From a virus: a stretch of DNA of 24,521 bases. The position numbers were made by a program, and so were the translations under genes. Of this stretch, positions 1 to 12,388 are shown piece by piece (position 1 is the first letter of the stretch; each line of letters starts with the position of its first letter). Below the pieces are notes generated by a model. It saw only the letters and a list, made by a program, of their open reading frames with translations. It had not been told where the DNA came from and ran no database searches. The DNA lies in IMG/VR virus record IMGVR_UViG_3300028925_000439, positions 1-24,521 of that record. One strand, 5' to 3'.

Positions 1-532
1 CATTTACCCATTGAGGTCTTTTGATTGATAGAAATAAAAATGGGAATGATAAACAACCTTCTTTCATTAAAACTGTTTCTTCACTTAAATCTTTAATAAT
101 TGGATTAAAGCAGTTTCTTACTTTGCCATCATCTATCTGTGGGTGACCTCCCATAACAAACATACGAAATGGTAGACCAACTTGATTTGCTGATAATCCT
201 ATGCCACCATATTTAACCATACTCTTATACATTTTATCAGACAATTCTTTTCTATCTTTTATCTCAAACACTTTTAACATATCATCTGTATAAGGTGCTA
301 TATTCATTAACAGTCTAGGGTCTGTAGGTGGTATTAATGGATATGAATTAGGGTCTTTTTTCTTTAAATGTTCGTGCATATCCTTAATTGGTCTTGCTTG
401 ACTATCTAAAATTTTAGGTTCTTCTTTTTTAAAATTTTGGTCTTTATCTAGAATAGGAGTTTTACCACTTGTAATATCTTCGTAGTATCTTACTGCCTCT
501 TCTATTTTTTCTGGTGTTAGTTTTTCTGCCAT
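1..532 (-). CDS. def: Peptide deformylase, 3' end beyond window
   Basis: Partial CDS; 177 codons are visible and the frame runs off base 1. The product would remove the formyl group from the N-terminal formyl-Met of nascent proteins, using a metal held by one Cys and two His. Seen: motif 1 of the family as GIGLSANQVG (residues 110-119; the usual form is GxGLAAxQ) and motif 2 as EGCLSFP (158-164), whose Cys160 is the metal ligand. Motif 3 (HExxH) would lie past the window edge. The conserved core normally begins near the chain start; here about 65 residues of charged, Lys/Glu-rich sequence precede it. The ATG shares its first base with the TAA of gene 46 (TAATG), and an AAGGATGG sequence lies upstream inside gene 46, so it is translationally coupled. 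Phage deformylases are known in marine myophages. The family call is firm; activity cannot be judged without the C-terminal part. Confidence 0.9.
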   Translation of the reverse strand, partial: MAEKLTPEKIEEAVRYYEDITSGKTPILDKDQNFKKEEPKILDSQARPIKDMHEHLKKKDPNSYPLIPPTDPRLLMNIAPYTDDMLKVFEIKDRKELSDKMYKSMVKYGGIGLSANQVGLPFRMFVMGGHPQIDDGKVRNCFNPIIKDLSEETVLMKEGCLSFPFLFLSIKRPQWVN

Positions 533-2247
533 TATTCTGCCATCCTTGTAAAGTTTTTATATTTCTCAAACTTCATTACTCTTGGGAACTTATCTATAAG
601 AGTGTCGCCTTTGTGAGATATGACAAATACATTTTCTTTTTTCAAAGTATAATGAAGTATTCGCATAAACTCATCTGTGCCTGAGCTGTCTAGTGAACTA
701 TCAAATATTTCATCAAGTATAAGTAGATTTGTATTTGTAGAATTTTTAAGTTTAGCAATTTCTCGCCATGTGAATAGTATTGCCAAGTCTATTCTTAACT
801 TTTCACCCTCACTAAATGAATGATAGTTAAACTCATCTCTATGTCTAGATTTTATTGTCTCGTTAAATTCTTCATCTAGACTAAAATTAACAAAGAAATC
901 CATACTTGCTAAATTCTTGTTAATTAATTGATTCATAACTGGTAGATATTGTTTTATAATTTTAGTTTTGATACCAGTATCTTGCATAAGATGTCTAGCG
1001 GTATCTATGTAAAGCATTTCTTTTTTCTGGTCTAACTTATCTTTTTCTAGTTGCGAAGATTGACTGACTAACTGATTTAACTCACCAGTTTGTTCAGCTG
1101 TAGATACCTTTTCATCTTGTAATTCTGTTATCTCTTGACTTAATCTAATTGTTTGTTTTTTTATTTCTTCTATAGATGTCTCATAACGATTAATCAATAA
1201 CTCTTTTTCTCTGATTAAGACCATTGTTTTATTAATCGTGGTTAGTTTCATATCACTAGTTTTAATTTCTTTTTCTATCTGACCAAGTGCTATTTCTAAC
1301 TCTTGTACTTTTTCTGCCTTTTTGCTAATCATTGTAGACTTAAATGCTTCATCAATTGCTTGTTGACAAGTAGGGCAATCATTGTATGTCTGAAAGAAAC
1401 TTAAATCTTTTTTATGTTTGTTACAAGTATTCTCTAACTTTGCTTCCATATTATGAAGCTTCTTATGTTTAGCAGTTATCTTTGTTTCATCTAATACTAG
1501 TTTTTGTAATTCAGCAATCTCTACTCTAACTCGTTTTATATCTTCTTCATAGTTAGATATATCGATTGTAGATTTATCTAAATCTGCCTTTTTAGAGTCT
1601 GCTAAATCTTTACTACGATTACTAATATCATCAATATATTTTCTTTTATCTTCAATCTTGTTATCAACTAACTGAAAATTAAAATCTGTTTGTTTAATTA
1701 ACTCATCTTGGTTCTTTTGTTTCTCTCTAAACAGCAGGTTCATTTTAGAAAATATTTCAATGTCTAATATTTCTTCTACTACTTGTCGCCTATGCCTTGC
1801 TCTTAGTTGCATAAATGGCACAAACGAAGCATTACCTAGTATCACAACTTGAGTAAATGACCTAAAGTTTAGTTTTAATATTTGTTGTTCTAGATGTTTC
1901 TGATAATCTCTTTGAGCAGCGTCTTGATTTAACATATCACCATCACACCATATCTCAAATATATTTGGTTTGATGCCTCTTATAATCTTATAATCTTTTT
2001 GACCTACTGTAAATTCAACTTCAACAACACATCCTTTTTCGTTAATAGAATTAATTAATTGGTCTTTTTTAATCCCACGAAATGGTCTTTGAAACAAACC
2101 AAAACATAAGGCGTCTAACATTGTAGATTTCCCTGCACCGTTTTCACCGACAACTAATGTAGTATTTGCTTTGTCTAAATCTATTTCTATAAACTGTTGA
2201 CCCGTACTTAAAAAGTTTTTATATCTTACTTTTTTAAATAATATCAA
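532..2247 (-). CDS. 46: gp46-like recombination endonuclease subunit (SbcC/Rad50 family)
   Basis: ATPase subunit of the gp46/47 complex that resects DNA ends for recombination-dependent replication and host DNA breakdown. Seen in 571 aa: Walker A GENGAGKST (34-42), a long central region rich in Lys/Glu/Leu that reads as coiled coil, a zinc-hook CPTC (291-294), the ABC signature FSEGEK (478-483) and Walker B LLILDEIFD (508-516). T4 gp46 is of similar size (560 aa). The start is TTG, not ATG: GGAGG lies seven bases upstream and no in-frame ATG is near. The start overlaps the TGA of gene 47 as TTGA, which couples the two subunits. The stop overlaps the deformylase ATG. Confidence 0.97.
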   Translation of the reverse strand: MILFKKVRYKNFLSTGQQFIEIDLDKANTTLVVGENGAGKSTMLDALCFGLFQRPFRGIKKDQLINSINEKGCVVEVEFTVGQKDYKIIRGIKPNIFEIWCDGDMLNQDAAQRDYQKHLEQQILKLNFRSFTQVVILGNASFVPFMQLRARHRRQVVEEILDIEIFSKMNLLFREKQKNQDELIKQTDFNFQLVDNKIEDKRKYIDDISNRSKDLADSKKADLDKSTIDISNYEEDIKRVRVEIAELQKLVLDETKITAKHKKLHNMEAKLENTCNKHKKDLSFFQTYNDCPTCQQAIDEAFKSTMISKKAEKVQELEIALGQIEKEIKTSDMKLTTINKTMVLIREKELLINRYETSIEEIKKQTIRLSQEITELQDEKVSTAEQTGELNQLVSQSSQLEKDKLDQKKEMLYIDTARHLMQDTGIKTKIIKQYLPVMNQLINKNLASMDFFVNFSLDEEFNETIKSRHRDEFNYHSFSEGEKLRIDLAILFTWREIAKLKNSTNTNLLILDEIFDSSLDSSGTDEFMRILHYTLKKENVFVISHKGDTLIDKFPRVMKFEKYKNFTRMAE

Positions 2248-3320
2248 TCTTTGACCTCCGTATCTTGTGCTTCAACATACATTTCTTTAATCATAACTTT
2301 TAACTTGTCTTTGTCCAAGTCAACAGGTAACTGGTCTACATAATCATTAACAAGTGTGATTGTATCTTCGGAACCTTCTGCTACATCATCACTTACATTG
2401 GTATGACTTAAATCAGAATAGTCTTCTATTATCTTTAATTCATGTACACTAATCTCATTGTATAATCTATCAAGGAGTCTATCAAACATTTGATGGTCTT
2501 TTTTGTTTGCTACTACTAGTTTAATAAACTTTTGATTGTAGTCTGTTATATCAAACTTATCATAGTTTTTATCGGTATCATCATACACAAGTTTTTTAAA
2601 TATTGTATGTGGGTTCTTTATAAACTCAACTTCTCTTGTTTCAGTATCGAATACATGAAAACCTTTTTGATTGTTGTAATCCGACCATGTCATTTCATAT
2701 TGACTGCCTAGATAATAAACTTGACCATCGTCATTCTTGTGATGAAAATGACCACTATAAGTTTTTTCAAATCGTGATACAATTGATTTATCATAACCGT
2801 GTCTTTGTACTACGGTGTCCATCATTCTAAATCCGTTTAAGTCAAAATGCCCCATGCATACATCAGCATTTGCTGTGTTCAACATTTCAAAACAATGTGC
2901 TTCGTTTTCAGGATTAATCCAAGGCATCATCAAAATATTTAAACCATCAAACTCTACAACTTTAGGATCCTCGTAAATAAATGGTTCGTTCACGCCATCA
3001 GGTGCTGTACATAATGATTGAATAGCGTTTACTTTATTTGTATTTCGATAATAGATATCGTGGTTGCCTATGAGTATGTGTGTATCTATCTTTTCATCCC
3101 ATAGTCGTTGCATAAACTTATGTTTAAAGTTGTGTGCAATTCTAAAGTTAATAAATTTTCTTCTATCAACAATATCACCTAAATGAATAAGTGTTTTTAT
3201 ATTGTTCTCTTTTAAATAAGGAAAGAATACATTGTCATAAAACTTATAAAAGTATTCATCAAATATATTACTGTCATTTCTGGCACCAAAATGGGTGTCA
3301 TTCAACAATGCTATTTTCAT
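2244..3320 (-). CDS. 47: gp47-like recombination nuclease subunit (SbcD/Mre11 family)
   Basis: Metal-dependent nuclease partner of gp46. Calcineurin-like phosphoesterase motifs appear in order: NDTHFG near the N-terminus (D8, H10), HLGDIVDRR around residue 46, IGNHD near 84 and SGHFHHKND near 190, which together supply the two-metal site. The length of 358 aa is close to T4 gp47 (339 aa); the C-terminal third is acidic and less conserved, as expected for the gp46-binding part. The gene follows gene 55 after a nine-base gap with no obvious Shine-Dalgarno sequence, and its last codon overlaps the TTG start of gene 46. Confidence 0.96.
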   Translation of the reverse strand: MKIALLNDTHFGARNDSNIFDEYFYKFYDNVFFPYLKENNIKTLIHLGDIVDRRKFINFRIAHNFKHKFMQRLWDEKIDTHILIGNHDIYYRNTNKVNAIQSLCTAPDGVNEPFIYEDPKVVEFDGLNILMMPWINPENEAHCFEMLNTANADVCMGHFDLNGFRMMDTVVQRHGYDKSIVSRFEKTYSGHFHHKNDDGQVYYLGSQYEMTWSDYNNQKGFHVFDTETREVEFIKNPHTIFKKLVYDDTDKNYDKFDITDYNQKFIKLVVANKKDHQMFDRLLDRLYNEISVHELKIIEDYSDLSHTNVSDDVAEGSEDTITLVNDYVDQLPVDLDKDKLKVMIKEMYVEAQDTEVKD

Positions 3321-3329
3321 ATTATTATT

Positions 3330-3845
3330 TTAATCTTCTTTTGTATTTTTTTGTAGATAGTCTAACATTTGACTTTGATACTGAGCCTCATCACCAATCA
3401 TTTGGTCCATCATATTATGAGCGCCATATTCAGAAATTAGTTTATTTTTTATAGTTGATTGTTTTTTTTCTTTTTGTATTCTTCTAATAAATGCATAGTA
3501 AATTATTTGTGTAAAATATGCAAATGGATTTTTACTTTTATCTGGATTGAAATTGTACATATATTGTAAACAGTTCTCAATACCATCACTAATCATATCA
3601 TCTCTGTAAGTATAATTAATAAAATTTGGTCTGTAAGATAGGTGATTAGCAATCTTTAAAAAACATTCACCAATATAATTAGTAACTACCGGTTTTTCTT
3701 TACCTTGCTCTTTAGCCTTCTCACAGTTATCCCTATATTCTATCATCGCTTCTAGGAACTGAGCATTATTTACATAATGAGGTTTCTCTCTTGGTTTTAA
3801 TTTTACTTCTTTTACTTCTTTTACTTCTTCGTCTTCTTTTTTCAT
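3330..3845 (-). CDS. 55: gp55-like late sigma factor
   Basis: Small phage sigma factor that redirects host RNA polymerase to late promoters (NATAAATA). Seen: the region-2-like block NPFAYFTQIIYYAFIRRIQKEKK, the gp55 hallmark used for core binding and -10 recognition, preceded by a helical stretch containing IENCLQYMYNF. I chose the ATG at 3845, giving 171 aa (T4 gp55 is 185 aa). The frame is open upstream to a TTG at 3881, but that stretch holds a consensus promoter, so the longer reading (183 aa) is unlikely. No Shine-Dalgarno sequence precedes the ATG, which fits a leaderless mRNA. The N-terminal linker carries a tandem EVK repeat encoded by three exact 9-bp units. Confidence 0.93.
   Translation of the reverse strand: MKKEDEEVKEVKEVKLKPREKPHYVNNAQFLEAMIEYRDNCEKAKEQGKEKPVVTNYIGECFLKIANHLSYRPNFINYTYRDDMISDGIENCLQYMYNFNPDKSKNPFAYFTQIIYYAFIRRIQKEKKQSTIKNKLISEYGAHNMMDQMIGDEAQYQSQMLDYLQKNTKED
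3801..3827 (-). repeat. Three exact 9-bp tandem repeats in gene 55
   Basis: TTTTACTTC is repeated three times head to tail (plus-strand reading), encoding EVK-EVK-EVK in the charged N-terminal linker of the sigma factor. In-frame unit size means copy-number change would lengthen or shorten the linker without a frameshift. Confidence 0.9.
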
Positions 3846-3852
3846 AATTTTT

Positions 3853-3881
3853 ATTATACTACATTTTGTGTTTAAATGCAA
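3853..3881 (-). promoter_or_regulatory. Sigma70-type promoter for gene 55 (leaderless)
   Basis: On the minus strand the -35 is TTGCAT (3881-3876, one mismatch to TTGACA), the spacer is 17 bp and the -10 is a perfect TATAAT (3858-3853). Only seven bases separate the -10 from the gene 55 ATG at 3845, so the expected start point falls at or one base before the A of ATG. No ribosome binding site can fit between them. Confidence 0.75.
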
Positions 3882-3904
3882 GCCTTTCTATAAGTTTTTT
3901 TAAT

Positions 3905-4045
3905 TTAATTTACATATACTATTGTTTCACATTTGGGACAACTAAAATTAGACATAACTAAATATTCCTTATCATCTTCGTCATCATTGTCATGGTCGCC
4001 ACCCCATATCATCTCTATATCTTTACACTTTGGACAACTTATCAT
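3905..4045 (-). CDS. 46-aa zinc-ribbon protein
   Basis: Short gene in the gap between genes 55 and the Sm-like gene. The product has two CPKC knuckles, at residues 4-7 and 36-39, separated by 28 residues that are strongly acidic (DHDNDDEDDKE). Four cysteines in paired CxxC form are typical of a zinc ribbon, so a small nucleic-acid- or protein-binding role is likely; I cannot name a specific family. The start is supported by AAGGATAGAG just upstream of the ATG (GGA about six bases from it). The TAA lies about 60 bases before the gene 55 start. Small zinc-ribbon proteins next to transcription genes sometimes act on RNA polymerase; here that is inference from position only. Confidence 0.78.
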   Translation of the reverse strand: MISCPKCKDIEMIWGGDHDNDDEDDKEYLVMSNFSCPKCETIVYVN

Positions 4046-4072
4046 CTCTATCCTTTTTTTTAATTGAATTTA

Positions 4073-4104
4073 ATTCCTGGTTACTGCTTGACAATCCTAG
4101 GAAT
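4073..4104. repeat. Inverted repeat around the antisense -35
   Basis: ATTCCTGG (4073-4080) pairs with CCTAGGAAT (4096-4104), with one bulged base and a 15-base loop. The -35 hexamer of the plus-strand promoter lies in the loop, so this could be an operator or an mRNA hairpin upstream of the zinc-ribbon gene. Function unknown. Confidence 0.55.
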
Positions 4105-4115
4105 GTGTGTATAAT
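4088..4115 (+). promoter_or_regulatory. Perfect consensus sigma70 promoter, plus strand (antisense)
   Basis: TTGACA (4088-4093), 16-bp spacer, TATAAT (4110-4115): both hexamers match the consensus exactly. It points rightward, against every gene in the window. A transcript starting near 4121-4123 would run through the hairpin at 4130-4181 and then antisense to the 3' end of the Sm-like gene. No plus-strand ORF with a credible start follows directly, so an RNA product or a regulatory antisense role is more likely than a protein. Confidence 0.65.
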
Positions 4116-4181
4116 CGACTATGTCGCTGCTTGATAAGAAGCTAAGCTATAAGACAGTTAGTGTATAGTCTTATTATCAAG
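4116..4181. other. Cluster of overlapping inverted repeats (candidate structured RNA)
   Basis: Several complementary arms overlap here. CTTGATAA (4130-4137) pairs with TTATCAAG (4174-4181). ATAAGAC (4149-4155) pairs with GTCTTAT (4168-4174), nested inside. GACTAT (4118-4123) pairs with ATAGTC (4165-4170), crossing the first pair in pseudoknot or switch fashion. CGAC-TAT-GTCG (4116-4126) forms a small hairpin. The decamer CTGCTTGAYA occurs at 4084 and again at 4127. The stop codon of the Sm-like gene (4158-4160) lies in the inner loop. On the minus strand this could protect or process the mRNA 3' end; on the plus strand it would lie at the start of the antisense transcript. There is no U-tract, so it is not a classical intrinsic terminator. 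Confidence 0.5.
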
Positions 4182-4616
4182 TTCTTCATATTCTAATTGT
4201 GCTTCTTCTTGTTCTTCTTGTTCTCTTAACTCAGTATCTAAATCTTCAGCAACCTCTAACATCCTTTCTATCTCTTGAGGTGTGTAGGCTGCCTTTATTT
4301 TAGTATGTTGTAACTTTGACAATATTACCTCATAATAGTTTGCTAATTCTTTTGCAGCTCTTGAAATAACCATTACCTTATCTTTTGGAACAACAAACAT
4401 TTTATCGTTTGTAAATGGTACCCAAGGTGCTAGGGTGTTATCGTCTTTTAGTCCTTGTGCAGTCATTCTTGGGGTTGTAATTAATTGTAAAGGATTTTGT
4501 ATTCGTAAAAAGTCTTTATCTATAGATATACTTCCGACTAATGTACTGCCGTCTGTTAACCTAACTATTCTATAGTCTGTTAAATCGTTTGGGGCTTTTT
4601 CTTGTAATTTATCCAT
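4158..4616 (-). CDS. Conserved small protein with Sm-like N-terminal segment
   Basis: 152 aa directly downstream of uvsW. Residues about 15-45 (VRLTDGSTLVGSISIDKDFLR and on) read like the strand-turn-strand start of an Sm/LSm fold, where a nucleotide-binding barrel opens with a variable-then-G pattern; this is fold-level resemblance only. The middle has a VPFTNDKMFVVPKDKV segment and the C-terminal 45 residues are a Glu-rich helix. No catalytic motif is visible. The ATG follows GATAAATA by five bases, with no Shine-Dalgarno sequence, so the message may be leaderless and late. The role is unknown; RNA binding is a guess. Confidence 0.75.
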   Translation of the reverse strand: MDKLQEKAPNDLTDYRIVRLTDGSTLVGSISIDKDFLRIQNPLQLITTPRMTAQGLKDDNTLAPWVPFTNDKMFVVPKDKVMVISRAAKELANYYEVILSKLQHTKIKAAYTPQEIERMLEVAEDLDTELREQEEQEEAQLEYEELDNKTIH

Positions 4617-4621
4617 ATAAC

Positions 4622-4629
4622 TATTTATC
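4622..4629 (-). promoter_or_regulatory. Candidate late promoter GATAAATA (leaderless start)
   Basis: GATAAATA on the minus strand overlaps the uvsW stop codon and sits five bases before the ATG of the Sm-like gene. With T4 late geometry (octamer at -13 to -6) the start point would be the A of that ATG. It matches seven of eight bases of the T4 late motif TATAAATA. Confidence 0.5.
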
Positions 4630-6107
4630 TATTCTTTTAGGTCGATATTATGCATCTCGTAATCAAACTCTTCCTCTGTATAGATGTTTATCCTTTCTTG
4701 AAAATGTTTTATTGTAAAGTTTTCTTTAGATTTATAAGTTAAATCATCTGCTATATCATATAAGGTAGCATTAACTTTATTATCACCTAATCTTAAACCA
4801 CGACCTATACTTTGTAAATTTCTTATTCTACTTTTAGAAGGACTAGCAAAAATAATGTTGTGTAAATTTTTAATATTAACACCAGTACTAAATGTACCAT
4901 AACTTGCAACAATAATGGCATCTTTTTCTTTTTCTACTATTCCTCTTATTGCTTCTCTCTCATTAGCTTCAACACCACCAAAAATAAGAAAAACTTTTCG
5001 ATTGGCATCAGCCTTCTTTTTTATTATCTCATGTAAATTCTTACCATGTTTTTCTACTAACTGAAATAAAACTAAAGTGTTACCTTTTAATTTAAGTGCT
5101 AGATTACGAATAAATTTTTGTCTTGATTTACTACTTACTAGATAGTCTATTTCATCTTGATATTTACCACTTGCAACCATTTTACTATTTTCTACTGTGT
5201 GTTTTAAAATTAAACAACGAACAACTAAATTAGACAGCTGTTGTTTGTCCATTAGTTTTCTTGTAGATGTAACTTTATTGACAGCACCAAACAAACCTTC
5301 TAATACTAGTTTATGTGTCTGAGCACCATCTAGTGTACCAGTAAGACCAATACGATATTTACAATCTTCAAGTTTTGTCATAATCTCTGTAAGTGATTTA
5401 GATTTAAATAAATGGGCTTCATCACCAAAGACACAACCAAACTGTTCGAAATATGCTTTTGGTAACTTATATAAACTCTGCCATGTCGATATAAGAACTT
5501 TCTTATCTGTTTGATTTGAATATCCACTATATAATTTATGACAATTTTTCTTTACATTCCAACCGTATGATTCAAAGTCAGAATACATCTGTTCAACTAA
5601 CGAGGTTGTTGGTACAATCAATAATATTCGATTGTTAGGGGCATCTTTGATTAAATGAGTATAGTATCGTATTAACGAATATATGATGAATGACTTACCT
5701 GATGCTGTAGGACTCAGTAGCAACGACCTATTGAACTTTAAACTATGATATATGGCGTCTATCTGATAATCTCTTGCCTCAAACTTTTGACCTAGACTGT
5801 TTGAGAATTTTTTGACAACATCTTTATCTACTTTATTATTAACCTCAACACCTTCTTCTGATACAATATTATATCCTCTTTCTTCAGCAAAGGCTCTAAT
5901 GTATGGAAACAATCCAAAGTATATCTCTTTTGTCTTTTGAGAATATAATCTTATCTTACCATCCCACATACGATTACGGAATGCAGGCATAAACTTGTAG
6001 CCTGGTACATAAAATGTAAAGAACTCTGATATTTCTCGCTGAATGTTAGGGTCACAATCAACAGTTATATAGACTTCATTTTTCTTTTTTAGTATTAAAG
6101 TATCCAT
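4629..6107 (-). CDS. uvsW: UvsW-like recombination DNA/RNA helicase (SF2)
   Basis: Helicase that unwinds R-loops, drives branch migration and switches T4-type phages from origin- to recombination-initiated replication. Seen in 492 aa (T4 UvsW has about 500): an N-terminal domain of about 110 residues, motif I SPTASGKS (132-139), motif II DEAH in GDEAHLF near residue 230, motif III-like LTGTLDG, and a C-terminal motif VI QSIGRGLR. The ATG lies 13 bases inside the end of the upstream oxygenase gene, so translation is probably coupled. Confidence 0.96.
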   Translation of the reverse strand: MDTLILKKKNEVYITVDCDPNIQREISEFFTFYVPGYKFMPAFRNRMWDGKIRLYSQKTKEIYFGLFPYIRAFAEERGYNIVSEEGVEVNNKVDKDVVKKFSNSLGQKFEARDYQIDAIYHSLKFNRSLLLSPTASGKSFIIYSLIRYYTHLIKDAPNNRILLIVPTTSLVEQMYSDFESYGWNVKKNCHKLYSGYSNQTDKKVLISTWQSLYKLPKAYFEQFGCVFGDEAHLFKSKSLTEIMTKLEDCKYRIGLTGTLDGAQTHKLVLEGLFGAVNKVTSTRKLMDKQQLSNLVVRCLILKHTVENSKMVASGKYQDEIDYLVSSKSRQKFIRNLALKLKGNTLVLFQLVEKHGKNLHEIIKKKADANRKVFLIFGGVEANEREAIRGIVEKEKDAIIVASYGTFSTGVNIKNLHNIIFASPSKSRIRNLQSIGRGLRLGDNKVNATLYDIADDLTYKSKENFTIKHFQERINIYTEEEFDYEMHNIDLKE

Positions 6108-6673
6108 GTCATCACACTATATCTATCACCACTAATAACTTTTTTAACTTCATGTGGAAACATAAAGTTTGACGGAAAAACAACTGCTGAACCTTTTTTC
6201 TTTTCTAAAGGTTCACCACATAGTACAAACTCACCACCTTCATAATCATCATTTAAAAATATTAAAGATGTTAGATGTGGATAACCTTGTTTTTGACCAT
6301 GACTATAATGTATATTATCTATATGTTCTTTCATAAAACCCCCTGTGTCGTAACAGTTAATTCTAAAGTTTGTGTATTCTTGTATTTTAATTTTATCATG
6401 TATTGATATATAATCGTTTACGGCTATTTTAAATCCTTTTTGTATAACTTGATAGTCTTGATGTTGTGGTGTAATCCAAAACTCTTTCATATCAACTTTA
6501 GATGTGCCTAGATTTTTATTAGCAGTTGAGAAAGTTGAAGTTTGCCACTTATTAAACGTATCTTTGTTATAATGATTTACTATATTATCACAAGCGACCG
6601 AGTCTAATACTTGTGGATAATAATATATGTAATTATAAACTTTGTCTTTAGAGATTGGCTGACTGAAACTCAT
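6095..6673 (-). CDS. 2OG-Fe(II) oxygenase, prolyl 4-hydroxylase-like
   Basis: 192 aa. The C-terminal double-stranded beta-helix shows the iron ligands H117-x-D119 (MKEHIDN), distal H174 (FPHEV) and the 2-oxoglutarate-binding R184 (GDRYS). The stretch GGEFVL plus KKGSAVVFPS is typical of P4Hc-type enzymes. It should hydroxylate a protein or small substrate using O2 and 2-oxoglutarate; the substrate is unknown. The start has a good GGAGAAC ribosome site and overlaps the end of the next upstream oxygenase gene by 26 bases. Such enzymes are frequent in marine T4-like phages. Confidence 0.9.
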   Translation of the reverse strand: MSFSQPISKDKVYNYIYYYPQVLDSVACDNIVNHYNKDTFNKWQTSTFSTANKNLGTSKVDMKEFWITPQHQDYQVIQKGFKIAVNDYISIHDKIKIQEYTNFRINCYDTGGFMKEHIDNIHYSHGQKQGYPHLTSLIFLNDDYEGGEFVLCGEPLEKKKGSAVVFPSNFMFPHEVKKVISGDRYSVMTWIL

Positions 6674-7247
6674 GATGTTCTCCTACTTGACCTTTTACTT
6701 GCATATTCCAGGCTATACTTATACGTTTGTTTTTTGAATTATTTTGTTGTACCCAATGGGGCAACCACGCAGGAAAAAATATTGCTCTATTTGTTTTTGA
6801 TGCATAACTTAATAGACTAGCATTTAAATCATTTGTTTCAATTTTTTTAGGCACTATAACATCAGCTGCAGGTCTTGGGTCATGAAAAACTATACTTGCA
6901 CCTTGGTCTGATTGCAAATAATAAGTGCCACTTAAAAAATTATTTGAATGTGTGTGAGCAGGGTGATGTTCATTTTGTTTTAAAACATTTGCCCACATAT
7001 CAGTAATGACTAAATCCTTTACATCATAACCTAGTGTGTTACATATATCTTTACCAGTCTTTATAATTAAATCTGAAAACGATTTAAACTCTTTTTTTGT
7101 GTGTAAGTTTGCTGATTTTGTTTGCCAATTAACATCATAGTCTCTTTCTTTCCATAGGTCACCAACATACTCTTTCATTGTATCTGTATCGTCTATGAAA
7201 TTATCTAATAAGAATATATTAGTAGCAAATATTTTTTGATGTTGCAT
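6648..7247 (-). CDS. Putative 2OG-Fe(II) oxygenase, second family
   Basis: 199 aa. It resembles the phage/marine oxygenase family with an HxH entry motif: HPAHTHSNNFLSGTYYL carries H98-x-H100, with a distal H164 in LPHWV and R175 beyond it as possible 2-oxoglutarate anchor. It differs clearly from its downstream neighbour, which uses HxD, so the pair is not a recent duplication. The ATG shares its A with the uvsY stop (TAATG) and lacks a clear Shine-Dalgarno sequence, suggesting coupling. Substrate unknown. Confidence 0.85.
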   Translation of the reverse strand: MQHQKIFATNIFLLDNFIDDTDTMKEYVGDLWKERDYDVNWQTKSANLHTKKEFKSFSDLIIKTGKDICNTLGYDVKDLVITDMWANVLKQNEHHPAHTHSNNFLSGTYYLQSDQGASIVFHDPRPAADVIVPKKIETNDLNASLLSYASKTNRAIFFPAWLPHWVQQNNSKNKRISIAWNMQVKGQVGEHHEFQSANL

Positions 7248-7675
7248 TATATTGCGCCGCTAGTAAACTTTTTCCACTCTATCGCATTTTTAATTAAAAA
7301 GGTTCTGCTGTTTATACTTCTTAAAACTTGTTCAAGATATGTAACGACTTGTTTTAGATATGCAGCTTTTTGGTCTGCTCTCTGTAACTCATCATCTGAA
7401 TCCATATAAATGTGTACATCTGCTTTTAATATTTTTAAATCAAATGGTTTCTCTGTATAAACCGAAGGGTCTGATTTACCTGTATAATATTCCCACTTGT
7501 GTCTTTGTAAAGTTTTATATTCATATTCTGCTTTCTTGAGTAATAAAGAAAACTTATTAAAGTGTTGTAGGTATTTATTATGTAATAAAGGTATTTTAAT
7601 CGACTCAGCATCTAGCTCAGTATCATCTAATTTAAAATCTCTATCTACTTGTTGTTGTAATTCTTCTAATGTCAT
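7247..7675 (-). CDS. uvsY: UvsY-like recombination mediator
   Basis: Loads the UvsX recombinase on single-stranded DNA coated with gp32. 142 aa, close to T4 UvsY (137 aa). The call rests on the overall helical pattern, the basic motif KWEYYTGKSDP near residue 60, and the C-terminal helices (LEQVLRSINSRTFLIKNAIEW) that assemble the hexamer, together with its place in the uvsY-uvsW order. The ATG overlaps the TGA of the upstream glycosyltransferase-like gene (ATGA). A perfect sigma70 promoter ends six bases before this ATG and no ribosome site is correctly spaced. Confidence 0.93.
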   Translation of the reverse strand: MTLEELQQQVDRDFKLDDTELDAESIKIPLLHNKYLQHFNKFSLLLKKAEYEYKTLQRHKWEYYTGKSDPSVYTEKPFDLKILKADVHIYMDSDDELQRADQKAAYLKQVVTYLEQVLRSINSRTFLIKNAIEWKKFTSGAI

Positions 7676-8481
7676 GAGTGTATTATATCACCTTTTGGTT
7701 GGTTTGTCAAGGCTTTAACCATTTCTTTTTGTGTAATATAGGTAAGATTATCACAGTCTTTCCATTCATCTATTTCACAATCTATTGATGATGTGCCAAT
7801 AGTATTCAGATTTACCTTGTAAAAATTAACATCTTTAAATTTATTAAATGTATTTTTATGTTGCAGTATCCAATGGTGTAAATCATCTTTCTCTGATTTA
7901 TCAGGCCTCATCATTGGAGTATCTTTATCTACATAACAAGAAGTTCCTGCATAGATGTTGTTCACTCTATCGTCTGTTGAATATAAATCATGACCGATAA
8001 TATAAACTTCTTTTGCACCAAGTTCACACGCCAGATAGATTGCTCTTGTGCCTGTTGCATATGCAAAGCCATCTATATCTGGCTCTATGTTCTCTACTTT
8101 ATCATTGTTGGTTACTCCGGTGATATAGGTCGTGCCTAAGTTATGCCCTTTTGTGAGCGTAAACACTCCATCAGCACCATGATAAACCACTTCTTCACTA
8201 TCATTCCAAACAATGTCAGTTTTATCTGCCATAGTTTTCATCATTTCTTTTGCAACAAATATTGGCACAGGTGTCCAATATCCTAAATAACAAGTGTTTT
8301 TGTGTGCATATCCTGACCGATATATTTCGTGACCTATTTGTGAATCTAATCCCACAACAATATCTGGTGTGAAATCACGATAGATTGCATTACAACCTAT
8401 TACTGTTCCGTGTTTTTTGAAATCGTCTAGATTTAGACCTTTACGAGAATTACCATTACCAAAGCAAAACGCTGTCATCAT
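7672..8481 (-). CDS. DUF115/GT42-like glycosyltransferase candidate
   Basis: 269 aa. The N-terminus opens with GNGNSRKGLNLDDF and then VIGCNAIYRDFTPDIVVGLD, the pattern of a Rossmann-like fold seen at the start of DUF115 and family-42 sialyltransferase-like proteins. Later AIYLACELGAKEVYIIGHDLY matches the second half of that fold. No membrane segment or signal peptide is seen. It may transfer a sugar onto virion or host glycans; this is inference from fold-level similarity. ATGATG start, AGGATGG ribosome site six bases upstream. Its last bases hold the uvsY promoter. The gene lies between a tail gene and uvsY. Confidence 0.65.
   Translation of the reverse strand: MMTAFCFGNGNSRKGLNLDDFKKHGTVIGCNAIYRDFTPDIVVGLDSQIGHEIYRSGYAHKNTCYLGYWTPVPIFVAKEMMKTMADKTDIVWNDSEEVVYHGADGVFTLTKGHNLGTTYITGVTNNDKVENIEPDIDGFAYATGTRAIYLACELGAKEVYIIGHDLYSTDDRVNNIYAGTSCYVDKDTPMMRPDKSEKDDLHHWILQHKNTFNKFKDVNFYKVNLNTIGTSSIDCEIDEWKDCDNLTYITQKEMVKALTNQPKGDIIHS
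7682..7710 (-). promoter_or_regulatory. Perfect sigma70 promoter for uvsY (leaderless)
   Basis: Minus strand: TTGACA (7710-7705), 17-bp spacer, TATAAT (7687-7682). Both hexamers and the spacing are ideal. Six bases (ACACTC) separate the -10 from the uvsY ATG, which puts the expected +1 on the A of that ATG. The promoter is embedded in the final codons of the glycosyltransferase-like gene. It would let uvsY and the downstream replication/recombination genes be expressed early by unmodified host polymerase. Confidence 0.82.
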
Positions 8482-8505
8482 TATATACCATCCTATATTA
8501 TTCTA

Positions 8506-9105
8506 CTATGAAGTAGATATTTGTACTATATCATAATTCATATAGTTAAAACTAACTGAAGCACTTAAATAATCTACATCAGTTTGTCTTACATCATAAT
8601 TTAAACTACCCAAAGATGTTGGGTAAATATTTTGAGATCTTATTTCTGTCTTAGGAATATTTTTACTATTTAAAAATGTAAGTATTGCGTCAGAATATAT
8701 ACCACCTTCATTTAAAGGTTGTGGTGTAGAGGTACCAGTTACGGCTGAACTTTTAGAAGAACCAGGAAATCTATCTGAACCAGCAGATTGTAAATCTTGA
8801 AACTGCTGATTGTTACTAGGAAATCCTAGACCAAGAATCCAGTCATGTATCTCTTTATAGTTGTTTAAATTTTCGTCAACAAGAAATGACATATCAAGAG
8901 CCGCAAAAGTTATCTTGTCTCCAGGCAGAGGCATATCATACAATGGAGTATTTTGTTGTGCTGAACCTAGATTGATACCAGGTATGTTAGCACTCTGTAC
9001 AAAAAACTCTACTGTTGGAAGTTTAGTACACTTGAACCTAAATTGAATAGGACTAGCATAATCACTCTTAGAAGGTTCTCTATTAATTATATTTGTTGTT
9101 GTCAT
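8506..9105 (-). CDS. gp19-like tail tube family protein
   Basis: 199 aa. Residues about 20-95 align by eye with gp19 of this window: the FFVQSANIPGINLGS segment parallels FLCNATSIPGQNLGT, followed in both by a PGD/VGD turn, an F-x-x-L strand and a helix ending in W (IHDWILGLGF versus LERWMNGMN). It is thus a second tube-fold protein, with a Ser/Gly-rich insertion (about 105-135) and a different C-terminus. By its place after gene 23 it may be a tail completion or tube-end protein; the exact T4 counterpart is uncertain. Five bases separate its ATG from a TATAAATA late promoter and there is no ribosome site. Confidence 0.8.
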   Translation of the reverse strand: MTTTNIINREPSKSDYASPIQFRFKCTKLPTVEFFVQSANIPGINLGSAQQNTPLYDMPLPGDKITFAALDMSFLVDENLNNYKEIHDWILGLGFPSNNQQFQDLQSAGSDRFPGSSKSSAVTGTSTPQPLNEGGIYSDAILTFLNSKNIPKTEIRSQNIYPTSLGSLNYDVRQTDVDYLSASVSFNYMNYDIVQISTS

Positions 9106-9110
9106 ACTTA

Positions 9111-9118
9111 TATTTATA
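9111..9118 (-). promoter_or_regulatory. Late promoter TATAAATA, leaderless tube-like gene
   Basis: Exact T4 late octamer on the minus strand, located between the gene 23 terminator and the tube-like gene. With T4 geometry +1 falls on the A of the ATG at 9105. It restarts late transcription after the terminator. Confidence 0.75.
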
Positions 9119-9150
9119 AAGGTTTTTTAGGGGGGTATTATTAAGGCTTA

Positions 9151-9176
9151 AAAAAAGGGGCCGAAGCCCCTTTTTT
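9151..9176 (-). terminator. Intrinsic terminator after gene 23
   Basis: An 11-bp perfect stem, AAAAAAGGGGC / GCCCCTTTTTT, closes a CGAA tetraloop. It carries both an A-tract and a T-tract, so it can work in both directions. It begins about 25 bases beyond the gene 23 stop codon and is the only strong intrinsic terminator I see in the window. It should end the very abundant capsid transcript. Confidence 0.92.
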
Positions 9177-9200
9177 ACTACTTTTCGAGAAGAATCGAAA

Positions 9201-10526
9201 TTACATAATATTTGTAACTTTAACTCGTCTGTAGTATAGGTTTTGTGCTGTAGCACCAACTGCACCAGAGTTATCTAATGCGCCGTCGCCAGCAGAAGTT
9301 GCGAAAGGATTTTGAACCATTCCGTATCTAGTTTTAAATCCAATTTTTGGTTGGAAACTGTCTTGACCAACTGCACGAACCATTTGTAATGGAACATATG
9401 GGCAATAGAACAGACCAGAATCGTAAGGTGAAGTTCCTTTGTAACCAATTACATAGTACTGACTTGCAGATACGTTAGCAGCATATGGGTCAACATACAC
9501 TTTAAACTTACCGTTAAGTACACCAGCAAAAGTATTACCTGTATCATCAACATTTAAGTTGTTGTTCAACGCAGGAGCGTAATCTAAAACACCAGCCATT
9601 TGTAATGCAGAAGCAACATCAGCAGAACAAATAATAATGTTCCCTTTACCTCTACGAGTTTGTTGACCGATAGCGTTAGCATCTCTTTCTAGTTGATATA
9701 ACAGCCCTTTGAATTTCTCAACTGACCATCTACCGTTTGAGTCAGTATCTAAATCGAAGATACCAGCAGTTGTTACATTTACTTGAGCGCCTGGTTTAGC
9801 GTGACCGTAAATAGTTCTAACTACTTCTCTGTTGATTTCAGCAAGAATTTCACTTGAAAGGATGTTTGCAAGTTCTGTTTCAGCGTCTAAACCGTGGATT
9901 GCTTTTAAGTCTTGTGCAAGTTCCATAGTGTACTCTGCTTTTAGAGCACGAGATTTAGCAGTAACAGTTACTTTGTCGATTGAGAAAGCCATTTCAGCGA
10001 ACTCATCAGTACCATCACCTAAAGTTTCTGCCTGAGCAGTACTCATACCAGAACCAGTTGTGTAAGTTCCAGCAGAAGGTGAATCGTTTAGTGTTGCAGG
10101 GTTAGTACCAGCCTGAGCGTCAGGGGAACCTGAACCTCCAGCAGCATCTCTAGCAGAAAAATCTGAATCTGCTTCATTGAATAGTGCTTCTGCACCTGCT
10201 TGTGTACCGAATCTTGACTTCATTGCGAAGATTAAGCCTGTTGGACCAGTCATTGGTTGTACACCACAAATATCGTATGCGATAAGATTTGGCATAGCAC
10301 GTCTGACTAGCGATATTAAAACTGGATCAAAGTTGTCTACAGAAGCACCAGTTGCGTTTACAGGAGCAGCCTCAGTCATAAAGCTTCGGTCCTCCCTAAC
10401 TGATTTTTCTTGATTTTCTAAAATCACAGTAGTTACAGCTCTTTTATAAGCATCTTCGATTTTTGGTAAATCTGGATGTTCTAGGACTGGCTGCCACTTT
10501 TCCTGTAAGTTTTCAGTAAGATACAT
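9201..10526 (-). CDS. 23: Major capsid protein gp23
   Basis: 441 aa (T4 gp23 521 aa). The family start LTENLQEKWQPVLEHPDLP and the MPNLIAYDICGVQPMTGPTG block are typical of T4-like capsid proteins; the C-terminus IGFKTRYGMVQNPF is also conserved. The N-terminal peptide should be removed by the gp21 protease; MTE-AA (E52/A53) is the likely cut, fitting the hydrophobic-x-Glu rule. It forms the HK97-fold hexamers of the head. AAGGAGAGA gives a strong ribosome site. No late octamer lies in the 39-base gap to gene 22, so it probably shares that gene's promoter. Confidence 0.98.
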   Translation of the reverse strand: MYLTENLQEKWQPVLEHPDLPKIEDAYKRAVTTVILENQEKSVREDRSFMTEAAPVNATGASVDNFDPVLISLVRRAMPNLIAYDICGVQPMTGPTGLIFAMKSRFGTQAGAEALFNEADSDFSARDAAGGSGSPDAQAGTNPATLNDSPSAGTYTTGSGMSTAQAETLGDGTDEFAEMAFSIDKVTVTAKSRALKAEYTMELAQDLKAIHGLDAETELANILSSEILAEINREVVRTIYGHAKPGAQVNVTTAGIFDLDTDSNGRWSVEKFKGLLYQLERDANAIGQQTRRGKGNIIICSADVASALQMAGVLDYAPALNNNLNVDDTGNTFAGVLNGKFKVYVDPYAANVSASQYYVIGYKGTSPYDSGLFYCPYVPLQMVRAVGQDSFQPKIGFKTRYGMVQNPFATSAGDGALDNSGAVGATAQNLYYRRVKVTNIM

Positions 10527-10565
10527 TGTTATCTCTCCTTGTTATGTTTACATTTAATAAGAACA

Positions 10566-11636
10566 TTAAAACGCACCTTTTTGATTGATTTGTTTAAGGT
10601 TCTTTGTTATTGCGGCTGTATATGCAGCCATAGCATCTGACTTACCAGCATTAAAATCAGCTGGTTCGTTTGCCGCGACAGAATCAACAGAATCACTTTC
10701 TGTTATTTCTGATTTTGTTTTAGGGAAGTAAGACTCTTTGATAGTTTCTAACTTTTCTCTAAATTTCTCAGCACTATCATACTCGACATTCTCAGCCATA
10801 GACATAAACTTTTCTTTTTCTGTTTCTGCTAAATCAGCAGTTACTTCAACGATAGCTTGTGTCTTATAAAACTCAGAAACTTCTTTTGACAGATTTACAT
10901 TCTTTTCAATCTGTTCGTTAAGTTTAGATTCTAAATCTTTTGATTGATTTGTTAAGTCTTCTAATACATTGTACTTTTCTTCAGGAACATCAATATAATG
11001 TTCTTTAAATAAAGATTTAAGTCCAGTAATGAAATCTTCAGCAATCTCGGTACGAATACCTCTTTCGACTGCTAATTCATTTTCTTTCATCCATTCTTCA
11101 ACAACATAGTTCAGATACGAGTCAACTTTTTCAGTCATCGCTTCTTTTATTGTTTCAGTCTCTTTTGAAAGTTTTTGTTCATACTTAGACTCTAGTACTT
11201 TAACCTGTTCTTGTATTCTTGTCTTTACAGCAGTTTCAAAAATAGTCGCAGCCTTTTCCTTGAATTCCTCGGATAGGTCAGCGTCTGTTGAAACTAATGC
11301 TTTAACGTCATCAGATAGGTCAATATCCATTTCATCAGAATCAGTTGTTTCAGCAACAGTTTTTACACCGTCATCTACTTCTACTTCTTCTTCTTTCATG
11401 TCAGATGGTTTTTGGTCATTTGGTAATGAGCCGTCATTCGCATCCTTATTAACCTGGTCCGATACTTTAGATACCTTTTTTACAGCGGTTTGGCCATTAG
11501 GGTCAGTAGGTTTAACCACTGCCTTGCCCAAATCTTCGCCGTCGTTTTTAAGATGAGTAGGTTCAGCAGGAGCTGCGTCTTTATTGGCAGCATTCACTAC
11601 TTCGTCTAACTCATTTTTTACTTCGGTTTCAGACAT
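10566..11636 (-). CDS. 22: Prohead core scaffold protein gp22
   Basis: 356 aa, against 269 in T4. Highly charged, Lys/Glu-rich and predicted largely helical, with no enzyme motif. The last 30 residues (FNAGKSDAMAAYTAAITKNLKQ) resemble the conserved gp22 tail that contacts the capsid. The first 110 residues are an acidic, low-complexity extension (EEEVEVDDGVK, DSDEMDIDLSDD) that accounts for the extra length. It lies between protease 21 and capsid 23, as expected. Many x-x-Glu sites would allow destruction by gp21. AAGGAGAGA ribosome site. Confidence 0.9.
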   Translation of the reverse strand: MSETEVKNELDEVVNAANKDAAPAEPTHLKNDGEDLGKAVVKPTDPNGQTAVKKVSKVSDQVNKDANDGSLPNDQKPSDMKEEEVEVDDGVKTVAETTDSDEMDIDLSDDVKALVSTDADLSEEFKEKAATIFETAVKTRIQEQVKVLESKYEQKLSKETETIKEAMTEKVDSYLNYVVEEWMKENELAVERGIRTEIAEDFITGLKSLFKEHYIDVPEEKYNVLEDLTNQSKDLESKLNEQIEKNVNLSKEVSEFYKTQAIVEVTADLAETEKEKFMSMAENVEYDSAEKFREKLETIKESYFPKTKSEITESDSVDSVAANEPADFNAGKSDAMAAYTAAITKNLKQINQKGAF

Positions 11637-11656
11637 TCGGTCTCTCCTTAATATTT

Positions 11657-11674
11657 AAAAATTAATTAATTTTT
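11657..11674. repeat. 18-bp perfect AT palindrome in gene 22 leader
   Basis: AAAAATTAATTAATTTTT reads the same on both strands. It lies between the late promoter and the ribosome site of gene 22. It may be a weak hairpin in the leader or simply AT-rich sequence. Confidence 0.5.
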
Positions 11675-11685
11675 CTTATTGCTAT

Positions 11686-11693
11686 TATTTATA
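11686..11693 (-). promoter_or_regulatory. Late promoter TATAAATA for genes 22-23
   Basis: Exact octamer on the minus strand in the 104-base gap between genes 21 and 22. Predicted leader about 44 bases with AAGGAGAGA at its end. It probably also serves gene 23. Confidence 0.75.
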
Positions 11694-11740
11694 CATCTTA
11701 CCATCTCAAACCTTGCGCTTTTTAATATGTTGCGTAGGTT

Positions 11741-12388
11741 TTAAAATTTAGATATAAAATCTTTGAAGATGTTTGCTTTAACTTCAGCAAGTTTATTACG
11801 TTTAGTTCTTTCAATTTCCCATTTATATTGTTCAACTTCTATACTTTTCAGTATTCCGTTATCCCACACCCATTCTTTATTCTCCATAATACCTTCTACG
11901 AAAGCATCAGGGGCTGATGGGTCTGCAACTATGTCAGCTGCGGTTGCGAGATAAAAGTCTTTTCCAACAACATTTCGTCCTTGAGATTGTTGAATAGAAC
12001 CCATACCTCTTGAAGATACACCTAACTGAGCACCCTCGTCAATTAAATTCTTGACGATTTTACCGTAAGGGGTATCCATTACTTTTGCTTCTCCAATAAA
12101 GTTTTTACCTTCTTGTTTAAGACTAGTAATCATGTGTGAAACTCTTTCAAGGTTAACTGTTGGTCCGTCAGGATGTCCTAGTTCACCGAAAGCACGTTTC
12201 TTGTTTATAAATTCTCTAGTGTATCGTGCAACTTCTTTTGCTAAAGTGTCGACTGGATAAAGTCTACCATTACGGTTTTTGATATCAGCCTGCATAAAGA
12301 CACCACGAATTTTGTAGTTTTTACCACCAGAAGTATTTGCTTCTGTTAATACTTCGATATCTTCGATAGTTTCTGTAATTAGTTTCAT
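11741..12388 (-). CDS. 21: Prohead core protease gp21
   Basis: 215 aa (T4 212). Serine protease that digests the scaffold and trims gp23 during head maturation. Catalytic motifs seen: GELGHPDGP with H72 and LGVSSRGMG with S125/S126; FMQADIKNRNGRLYP is the usual N-terminal block. It starts inside the last codons of the 61-aa gene (4-base overlap), with a GGTGGAG ribosome site. Confidence 0.96.
   Translation of the reverse strand: MKLITETIEDIEVLTEANTSGGKNYKIRGVFMQADIKNRNGRLYPVDTLAKEVARYTREFINKKRAFGELGHPDGPTVNLERVSHMITSLKQEGKNFIGEAKVMDTPYGKIVKNLIDEGAQLGVSSRGMGSIQQSQGRNVVGKDFYLATAADIVADPSAPDAFVEGIMENKEWVWDNGILKSIEVEQYKWEIERTKRNKLAEVKANIFKDFISKF

Follow-up and report, generated by a model that had tools for sequence, protein, structure and literature searches.

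The question raised by this locus is why a stretch of phage DNA whose genes all face in one direction should carry a perfect promoter that faces in the other. The window, by which we mean the whole stretch of 24,521 nucleotides analyzed here (positions 1 to 24,521 of the IMG/VR record IMGVR_UViG_3300028925_000439), represents part of the genome of a T4-like marine phage, and its nearest named relatives are the Pelagibacter phages HTVC008M and Mosig, and cyanophages. All of its genes are located on the minus strand, in the order peptide deformylase, gp46, gp47, gp55, a zinc-ribbon gene, an Sm-like gene, uvsW, 2 genes for 2OG-Fe(II) oxygenases and uvsY, followed by the genes for the major head protein, portal, tail sheath and terminase. 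An earlier note on this DNA had reported an exact TTGACA-N16-TATAAT on the plus strand, directed against every gene in the window, and this was confirmed (Table 1). Judged by the gene families on either side, the promoter site is a seam where the head and tail genes together with uvsY, uvsW and the Sm-like gene end, and where gp55-gp47-gp46 begin. The antisense promoter is located at the boundary between this late module (capsid, portal, tail, uvsY, uvsW, Sm-like) and the gp55-gp47-gp46 module.

Table 1. Positions of the promoter elements, the hairpin and the neighboring genes in the window.
Feature	Position	Strand	Remarks
-35 hexamer TTGACA	4088..4093	+	TTGACA in 222/278 and TTGACT in 50/278 distinct elements
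16-nt spacer	4094..4109	+	Spacing of 16 in 99/278 and 17 in 177/278 distinct elements
-10 hexamer TATAAT	4110..4115	+	TANNNT in 278/278 distinct elements; TATAAT in 121/278
Hairpin CGAC-TAT-GTCG	4116..4126	+	4-6 bp in the family; CGACT-ATGT-AGTCG in sister clades
TGT in the hairpin loop region	4122..4124	+	Near-invariant
Purine-rich stretch, local version TTGATAAGAAG	4131..4141	+	Just 3' of the hairpin
Late sigma factor gene gp55	3330..3845	-	phrog_234, E 1.1e-60
Small zinc-ribbon gene	3905..4045	-	46 aa, CPKC...CPKC; between the promoter and gp55
Sm-like gene	4158..4616	-	152 aa; phrog_471; the antisense RNA would enter its 3' end
uvsW helicase gene	4629..6107	-	UvsW_N, ResIII; last long gene of the module facing the antisense promoter

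The Sm-like protein matched PDB entry 3by7 (E 1.7e-7) and the TIP60 cage subunit 7eq9 (E 8.3e-10). The former was deposited as an uncharacterized protein, which we take to be an Sm-like protein of putative cyanophage origin. It was also noted that the gene at 4158-4616 is labelled 'methylamine utilization' in many records, whereas its relatives of solved structure are 3by7 and the TIP60 cage protein. The zinc-ribbon insertion at 3905-4045 was also found in locus L002 and was absent from most near relatives. The 2OG-Fe(II) oxygenase genes, located between uvsY and uvsW at 6095-7247 (-), form an adjacent pair and belong to different families.

Only 2 sites in positions 1-12000 of the window matched the sigma-70 hexamers (TTGACA/TATAAT, 16-18 nt apart) at 12 of 12 letters, namely the antisense promoter with its 16-nt spacer (4088-4115, +) and a site at 7710-7682 (-). 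The latter, TTGACA-N17-TATAAT with a TG before the -10 hexamer, is sense-oriented and located just upstream of uvsY. Since an occasional perfect match may arise by chance, the relatives were compared. A query with the Sm-like protein gave 69 IMG/VR loci, 66 of which held the region, and the promoter was found at the same place in all 66, mostly with 12 of 12 letters, while the identity of the Sm-like protein dropped to 46%. Four gp55 queries gave 320 further loci. Overall, 402 of 410 related loci, from both pelagiphages and cyanophages, had the antisense promoter where the Sm-like gene ends; this set includes near-duplicates and comprises 278 distinct elements. A genuine antisense promoter next to the Sm-like gene was thereby supported; it points into the 3' end of this gene, in cis-antisense placement, in the window and in the relatives alike. 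Judged against these relatives, the predicted promoter is decisively above chance.

The exceptions among the 410 loci include incomplete contigs and a weaker version in phage Melnitz, which has kept the -10 hexamer, the TGT and the purine stretch without a good -35 hexamer. The promoter was identified in the cultured phages HTVC008M, Mosig, S-PM2, Syn9, P-HM2 and P-TIM68, among others, and the annotated genomes that contain it, some with 1-2 letters off consensus, are those of HTVC008M, Mosig, P-TIM68, S-PM2, P-HM1/2, S-RSM4, S-CAM3, P-SSM7, S-SKS1 and ACG-2014b/d/e. Its link to the late sigma factor gene, placed 2 genes away in the earlier note, turned out to be loose: where genes were inserted before gp55, the promoter followed the Sm-like gene and remained at its end, about 310-660 nt from gp55. 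Within the 16-nt spacer, CCTAGGAAT was kept among the near relatives and not family-wide. The spacer segment AATCCTAGGAAT (4094-4104) was largely kept in the window and its pelagiphage relatives (L035-L053) despite changing flanks, hinting at a further bound factor in the pelagiphage group. The purine-rich stretch reads TTCAAGAGA in cyanophages and TGGGGATAAG in many pelagiphages.

The complementary arms that had been noticed right after the promoter were also present, and they covary across the relatives. Among the arm pairs were CGCC/GGCG, AGGC/GCCT, AACGG/CCGTT, GGTCT/AGACC, AACAG/CTGTT, AACTTT/AAAGTT, CCGG/CCGG, ACCC/GGGT and many more, as well as AACTCT/AGGGTT, with one G.U pair, in one clade. 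The compensatory change that the earlier note had suggested looking for in related phages was found: stems of at least 4 bp were formed by 123 of 168 distinct 20-mers, as compared to a mean of 48 and a maximum of 62 when the 3' halves were permuted (300 trials). About a quarter of the distinct elements had a stem of less than 4 bp. Placed on a gp55 tree, 272 elements displayed 54 different versions of the 5' arm with about 87 changes, and 215 of the 272 retained at least 4 bp; loci with near-identical gp55 could have wholly different arms that still matched each other (L307 versus L304, L241 versus L246). The TGT, in contrast to the variable arms, was almost constant: 276 of 278 distinct elements have it 5-6 nt downstream of the -10 hexamer, where transcription would be expected to start.

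In an alignment of 34 elements made with MAFFT, the named 5-bp stem scored 0.425 versus 0.185 after shuffling, with none of 500 shuffles as high; these 34 rows were hand-picked for arm diversity, and the weight therefore rests on the unselected permutation test and the gp55 tree. RNAalifold predicted no consensus structure from this MAFFT alignment of 34 hand-picked elements, probably because the loop lengths shift the register. Folding of the hairpin beat shuffles under both RNA and DNA parameters (-1.81 versus -0.45 kcal/mol for DNA). The sequences point decisively to a hairpin above chance that evolves by compensatory change, its structure kept and its letters free. The element combines a fixed loop with a free but pairing stem inside a promoter. 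Other strong promoters of six genomes were mostly without the TGT and hairpin, the few exceptions including related sense copies, which ruled out that these are a general feature of early promoters.

The other arms described in the earlier note were real as letters and fared less well in the comparison. The complement between 4118-4123 and 4165-4170 exists with the first arm displaced by one base, ATAGTC at 4165-4170 pairing with GACTAT at 4117-4122; it was kept in the nearest 11 sequences, which are uninformative because five of the six pairs never vary there. The arms CTTGATAA/TTATCAAG at 4130-4137/4174-4181 were present, but the long stem to which they belong (4130-4141/4170-4181) had no covariation support, with 74% paired versus 71% in shuffles. 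Similarly, ATAAGAC/GTCTTAT at 4149-4155/4168-4174 could be found but was no better than shuffles. All 3 sets of arms were missing in other clades, GACTAT/ATAGTC for example in L035, L038 and L059. The inverted repeat over the -35 hexamer at 4073-4104 was recovered as ATTCCTgg/ccTAGGAAT (4073-4080/4097-4104) but is shared by only some of the near relatives; its upstream arm is gone in L035-L053, where the promoter is still present. The decamer CTGCTTGAYA does occur twice, with no extension beyond near relatives, and the repeated copy sits in the purine-rich stretch 3' of the hairpin that reads TTGATAAGAAG in this clade. Since covariation did not extend beyond near relatives and the crossing arms, in which no compensatory changes were seen, were lost in other clades, a pseudoknot or crossing-arm switch was not accepted.

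Folding of 4121-4200 against shuffled controls, proposed as a check on a structured RNA, was unremarkable (z -1.1), and the intervals 4116-4190 (z -1.5) and 4121-4190 (z -1.7) were unexceptional as well. No conserved structure or sequence was found in the relatives past about the Sm-like stop codon, and no terminator or 3' end of the antisense RNA could be defined from the sequence. There was no Rfam match at the gathering threshold in the window, the interval and L008 gave none even at E<=2, and no tRNA or tmRNA was found. A short plus-strand peptide was rejected, since the sister clades, read by eye, run into stops immediately.

Which strand and which nucleic acid carry the hairpin could be approached from its pairs and its position. 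G.U bridged 58 stems, whereas A.C, which is G.U on the other strand, did so in only 9, and this indicates that the plus strand is the selected one, with the caution that the signal is partly an effect of base composition and that many of the G.U cases come from the single AACTCT/AGGGTT clade. In sigma-70 promoters, transcription begins about 7 nt downstream of the -10 hexamer, a distance that puts the predicted first base of the antisense RNA at G4123, the G of the TGT. Only 0-1 nt separate the 5' arm from the -10 hexamer, and the arm thus begins about 6 nt before this predicted start; the hairpin therefore probably acts in the non-template DNA of the promoter rather than in the RNA. Thus, of the structured RNA proposed in the earlier note, a covarying element after the promoter was retained, whereas a hairpin within the RNA is doubtful. 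The non-template strand is unpaired in both the open complex and the initially transcribing complex. Under RNA parameters, however, the plus strand was the more stable in 111 cases and the minus strand in 18, a far larger difference than under DNA parameters (61 versus 42), and in this respect an RNA hairpin fits better than a DNA hairpin.

In 207 of 275 elements, as compared to 19 of 275 after shuffling, another strong promoter lies within 140 nt on the other strand; it is directed towards gp55 and is often back to back with the antisense promoter or overlaps it. This feature was weaker (61/118) in the group to which the window belongs, where the antisense -10 hexamer is TATAAT; the best candidate in the window is TTGTCA-N16-TAAATT at 4094-4067. 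In most cyanophage loci (such as L085, L092 and L099) only a few bases separate the 2 -35 boxes, or the boxes overlap (TGTCAA..GCTTGACA). Furthermore, the promoter and start region occur a second time, in sense orientation, ahead of small early genes in S-PM2 (162737), S-RIM32, S-H38, S-WAM2, S-RSM4, S-H9-1, Syn9 (52741) and Melnitz (39729). These copies, although present in few phages, suggest that the element behaves as a promoter module and that the antisense role is not its sole use. They were seen in L466 (at 1238-1300, the S-PM2 copy at 162737), L467, L477, L479, L480 and L481, with downstream early genes of different kinds, and in some of them the purine stretch resembles a ribosome-binding site.

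The promoter, its orientation and place, the TGT, the covarying hairpin and, in most relatives, the back-to-back promoter towards gp55 are features read directly from the sequences. The reading that we prefer, while holding it tentatively, is a dedicated early-type (host sigma-70) antisense promoter with an initiation-tuning hairpin, kept across the Kyanoviridae where the Sm-like gene ends, with a predicted start site and a putative function. As long as the polymerase still works with the host sigma factor, a non-coding RNA would be made from this promoter against the 3' ends of the Sm-like gene and uvsW, and this RNA may hinder read-through or premature expression of the Sm-like/uvsW module. 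The antisense promoter would also compete with the promoter of gp55, and would go silent once gp55 takes over the polymerase. The hairpin would act on the non-template promoter DNA at about -6 to +8, forming upon melting or scrunching of the start region or under DNA supercoiling, and may tune initiation or escape, with the stem letters free as long as they pair, as in phage N4. The uvsW gene of T4 is served by a late promoter (PMC3016281), which fits a need for a quiet uvsW module early in infection. It is a more doubtful proposition that these elements represent an undescribed, family-wide class of promoters for the host polymerase that require folding of the start region in the melted non-template strand, with a variable covarying stem and a near-invariant TGT loop, and from which an antisense transcript arises at the late/early boundary.

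We consider it unlikely that the promoter instead drives a small non-coding RNA gene with a functional 5' hairpin (for stability or protein binding), perhaps with the Sm-like protein as a partner and acting in trans or on the Sm-like mRNA. Such an RNA would account for the G.U covariation on the plus strand, the larger strand difference under RNA parameters and the purine stretch conserved after the hairpin, and the Sm-like gene adjoins the element in the annotated genomes examined; however, with a normal start site the 5' arm would be left untranscribed, nothing is conserved beyond about the Sm-like stop codon, and Rfam gave no match. Less probable again is a replication origin, at which RNA from the promoter would form an R-loop and prime the leading strand as at T4 oriF, while the hairpin held the displaced strand open. 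The hairpin is on the strand that an R-loop would displace, and uvsW and uvsY are adjacent. The precedent is a sigma-70 -10 promoter with an A+T-rich unwinding element, R-loops and an exposed non-template strand at oriF, and UvsW unwinds R-loops and acts on sites of the oriF/oriG type (PMC3016281). The locus resembles oriF (uvsY) and oriG (gene 34) in its sigma-70 -10 promoter, its A+T-rich downstream stretch (66% A+T, though the genomes are themselves A+T-rich) and its uvsY/uvsW region. It differs from them in its hairpin, none being mentioned for the T4 origins in the review (PMC3016281), and in the absence of a skew switch: GC skew tracked gene direction at the site in six genomes, although this is a weak test for recombination-replicating phages. 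Furthermore, the downstream RNA would be pyrimidine-rich (62% on average, 67% in the window) and form weak RNA-DNA hybrids, and the sense copies precede ordinary genes.

The hairpin could also belong to the minus-strand mRNA, as a trailer of the Sm-like gene or a leader of gp55, with the antisense promoter merely overlapping it. A minus-strand messenger would contain both arms without any start-site problem, and the minus strand of the window at 4046-4160 folds slightly better than shuffles (z -2.0). This is nevertheless very improbable, given that many lineages carry A.C mismatches on the minus strand where the plus strand has G.U, that the fixed position relative to the -10 hexamer of the plus-strand promoter is left unexplained, and that about 310-660 nt can separate the hairpin from gp55. 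There is even less to recommend the idea that the arms match through quasi-palindrome correction, by template switching during replication and with no selection on the hairpin. Template switching at inverted repeats is documented in T4 replication (PMC3016281) and the arms do change fast, but such correction leaves unexplained both the one fixed place family-wide, with the near-invariant TGT always at the center of the palindrome, and the large number of stems bridged by G.U, in which repair would restore perfect pairs.

The preferred reading of a promoter hairpin has its closest parallel in the early promoters of phage N4, which themselves contain a small, short-looped hairpin, with the stem free if paired and the loop letters fixed (PMC4496689). 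The element studied here is alike in its small promoter hairpin, fixed loop letters and free pairing stem. N4, however, uses its own virion RNA polymerase and a template-strand hairpin within -17 to +1, centered at -11, an arrangement that was not found here, where the promoter has sigma-70 -35 and -10 hexamers, the plus (non-template) strand is favored and the hairpin surrounds the start (about -6 to +8). The cfrI RNA is a non-coding antisense RNA of the T4-like cyanophage S-PM2 on the 3' side of psbA (PMC5931967); it differs in locus and in its association with a host-derived gene, whereas the present element is near-universal in the family. The manA, wcaG and PhotoRC-II RNAs of cyanophages were also found by covariation (PMC2864571) and are likewise structured non-coding elements of marine T4-like phages. 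Most of them serve as 5' leaders of metabolic genes; they have Rfam entries, and none of them matches here.

The conserved antisense promoter and hairpin appear to be undescribed so far. The accessible parts of the S-PM2 and P-HM2 transcriptome papers contain no mention of such an antisense RNA, and start sites have reportedly been mapped in a transcriptome study of Syn9. The Kyanoviridae are abundant ocean viruses, and their transcriptional switch from the host sigma factor to gp55 is poorly understood. An antisense promoter kept by nearly all of them at one place, with a structure-only signal that is very clear for so short a stretch, would represent a site of control missing from the annotation. 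Should the hairpin operate as DNA within the initiation complex, N4-type hairpin promoters would have a counterpart that is read by ordinary bacterial RNA polymerase; should it operate as RNA, the element would define a new family of phage small RNAs next to a phage Sm-like protein. Both readings of the hairpin can be tested in cultured phages.

Elsewhere in the window, a strong terminator-like hairpin, AAAAAAGGGGCC-GAAG-CCCCTTTTTT, was observed at 9151-9176 (+), by the 3' end of the gene for the major head protein, and its symmetry is sufficient for action on both strands.
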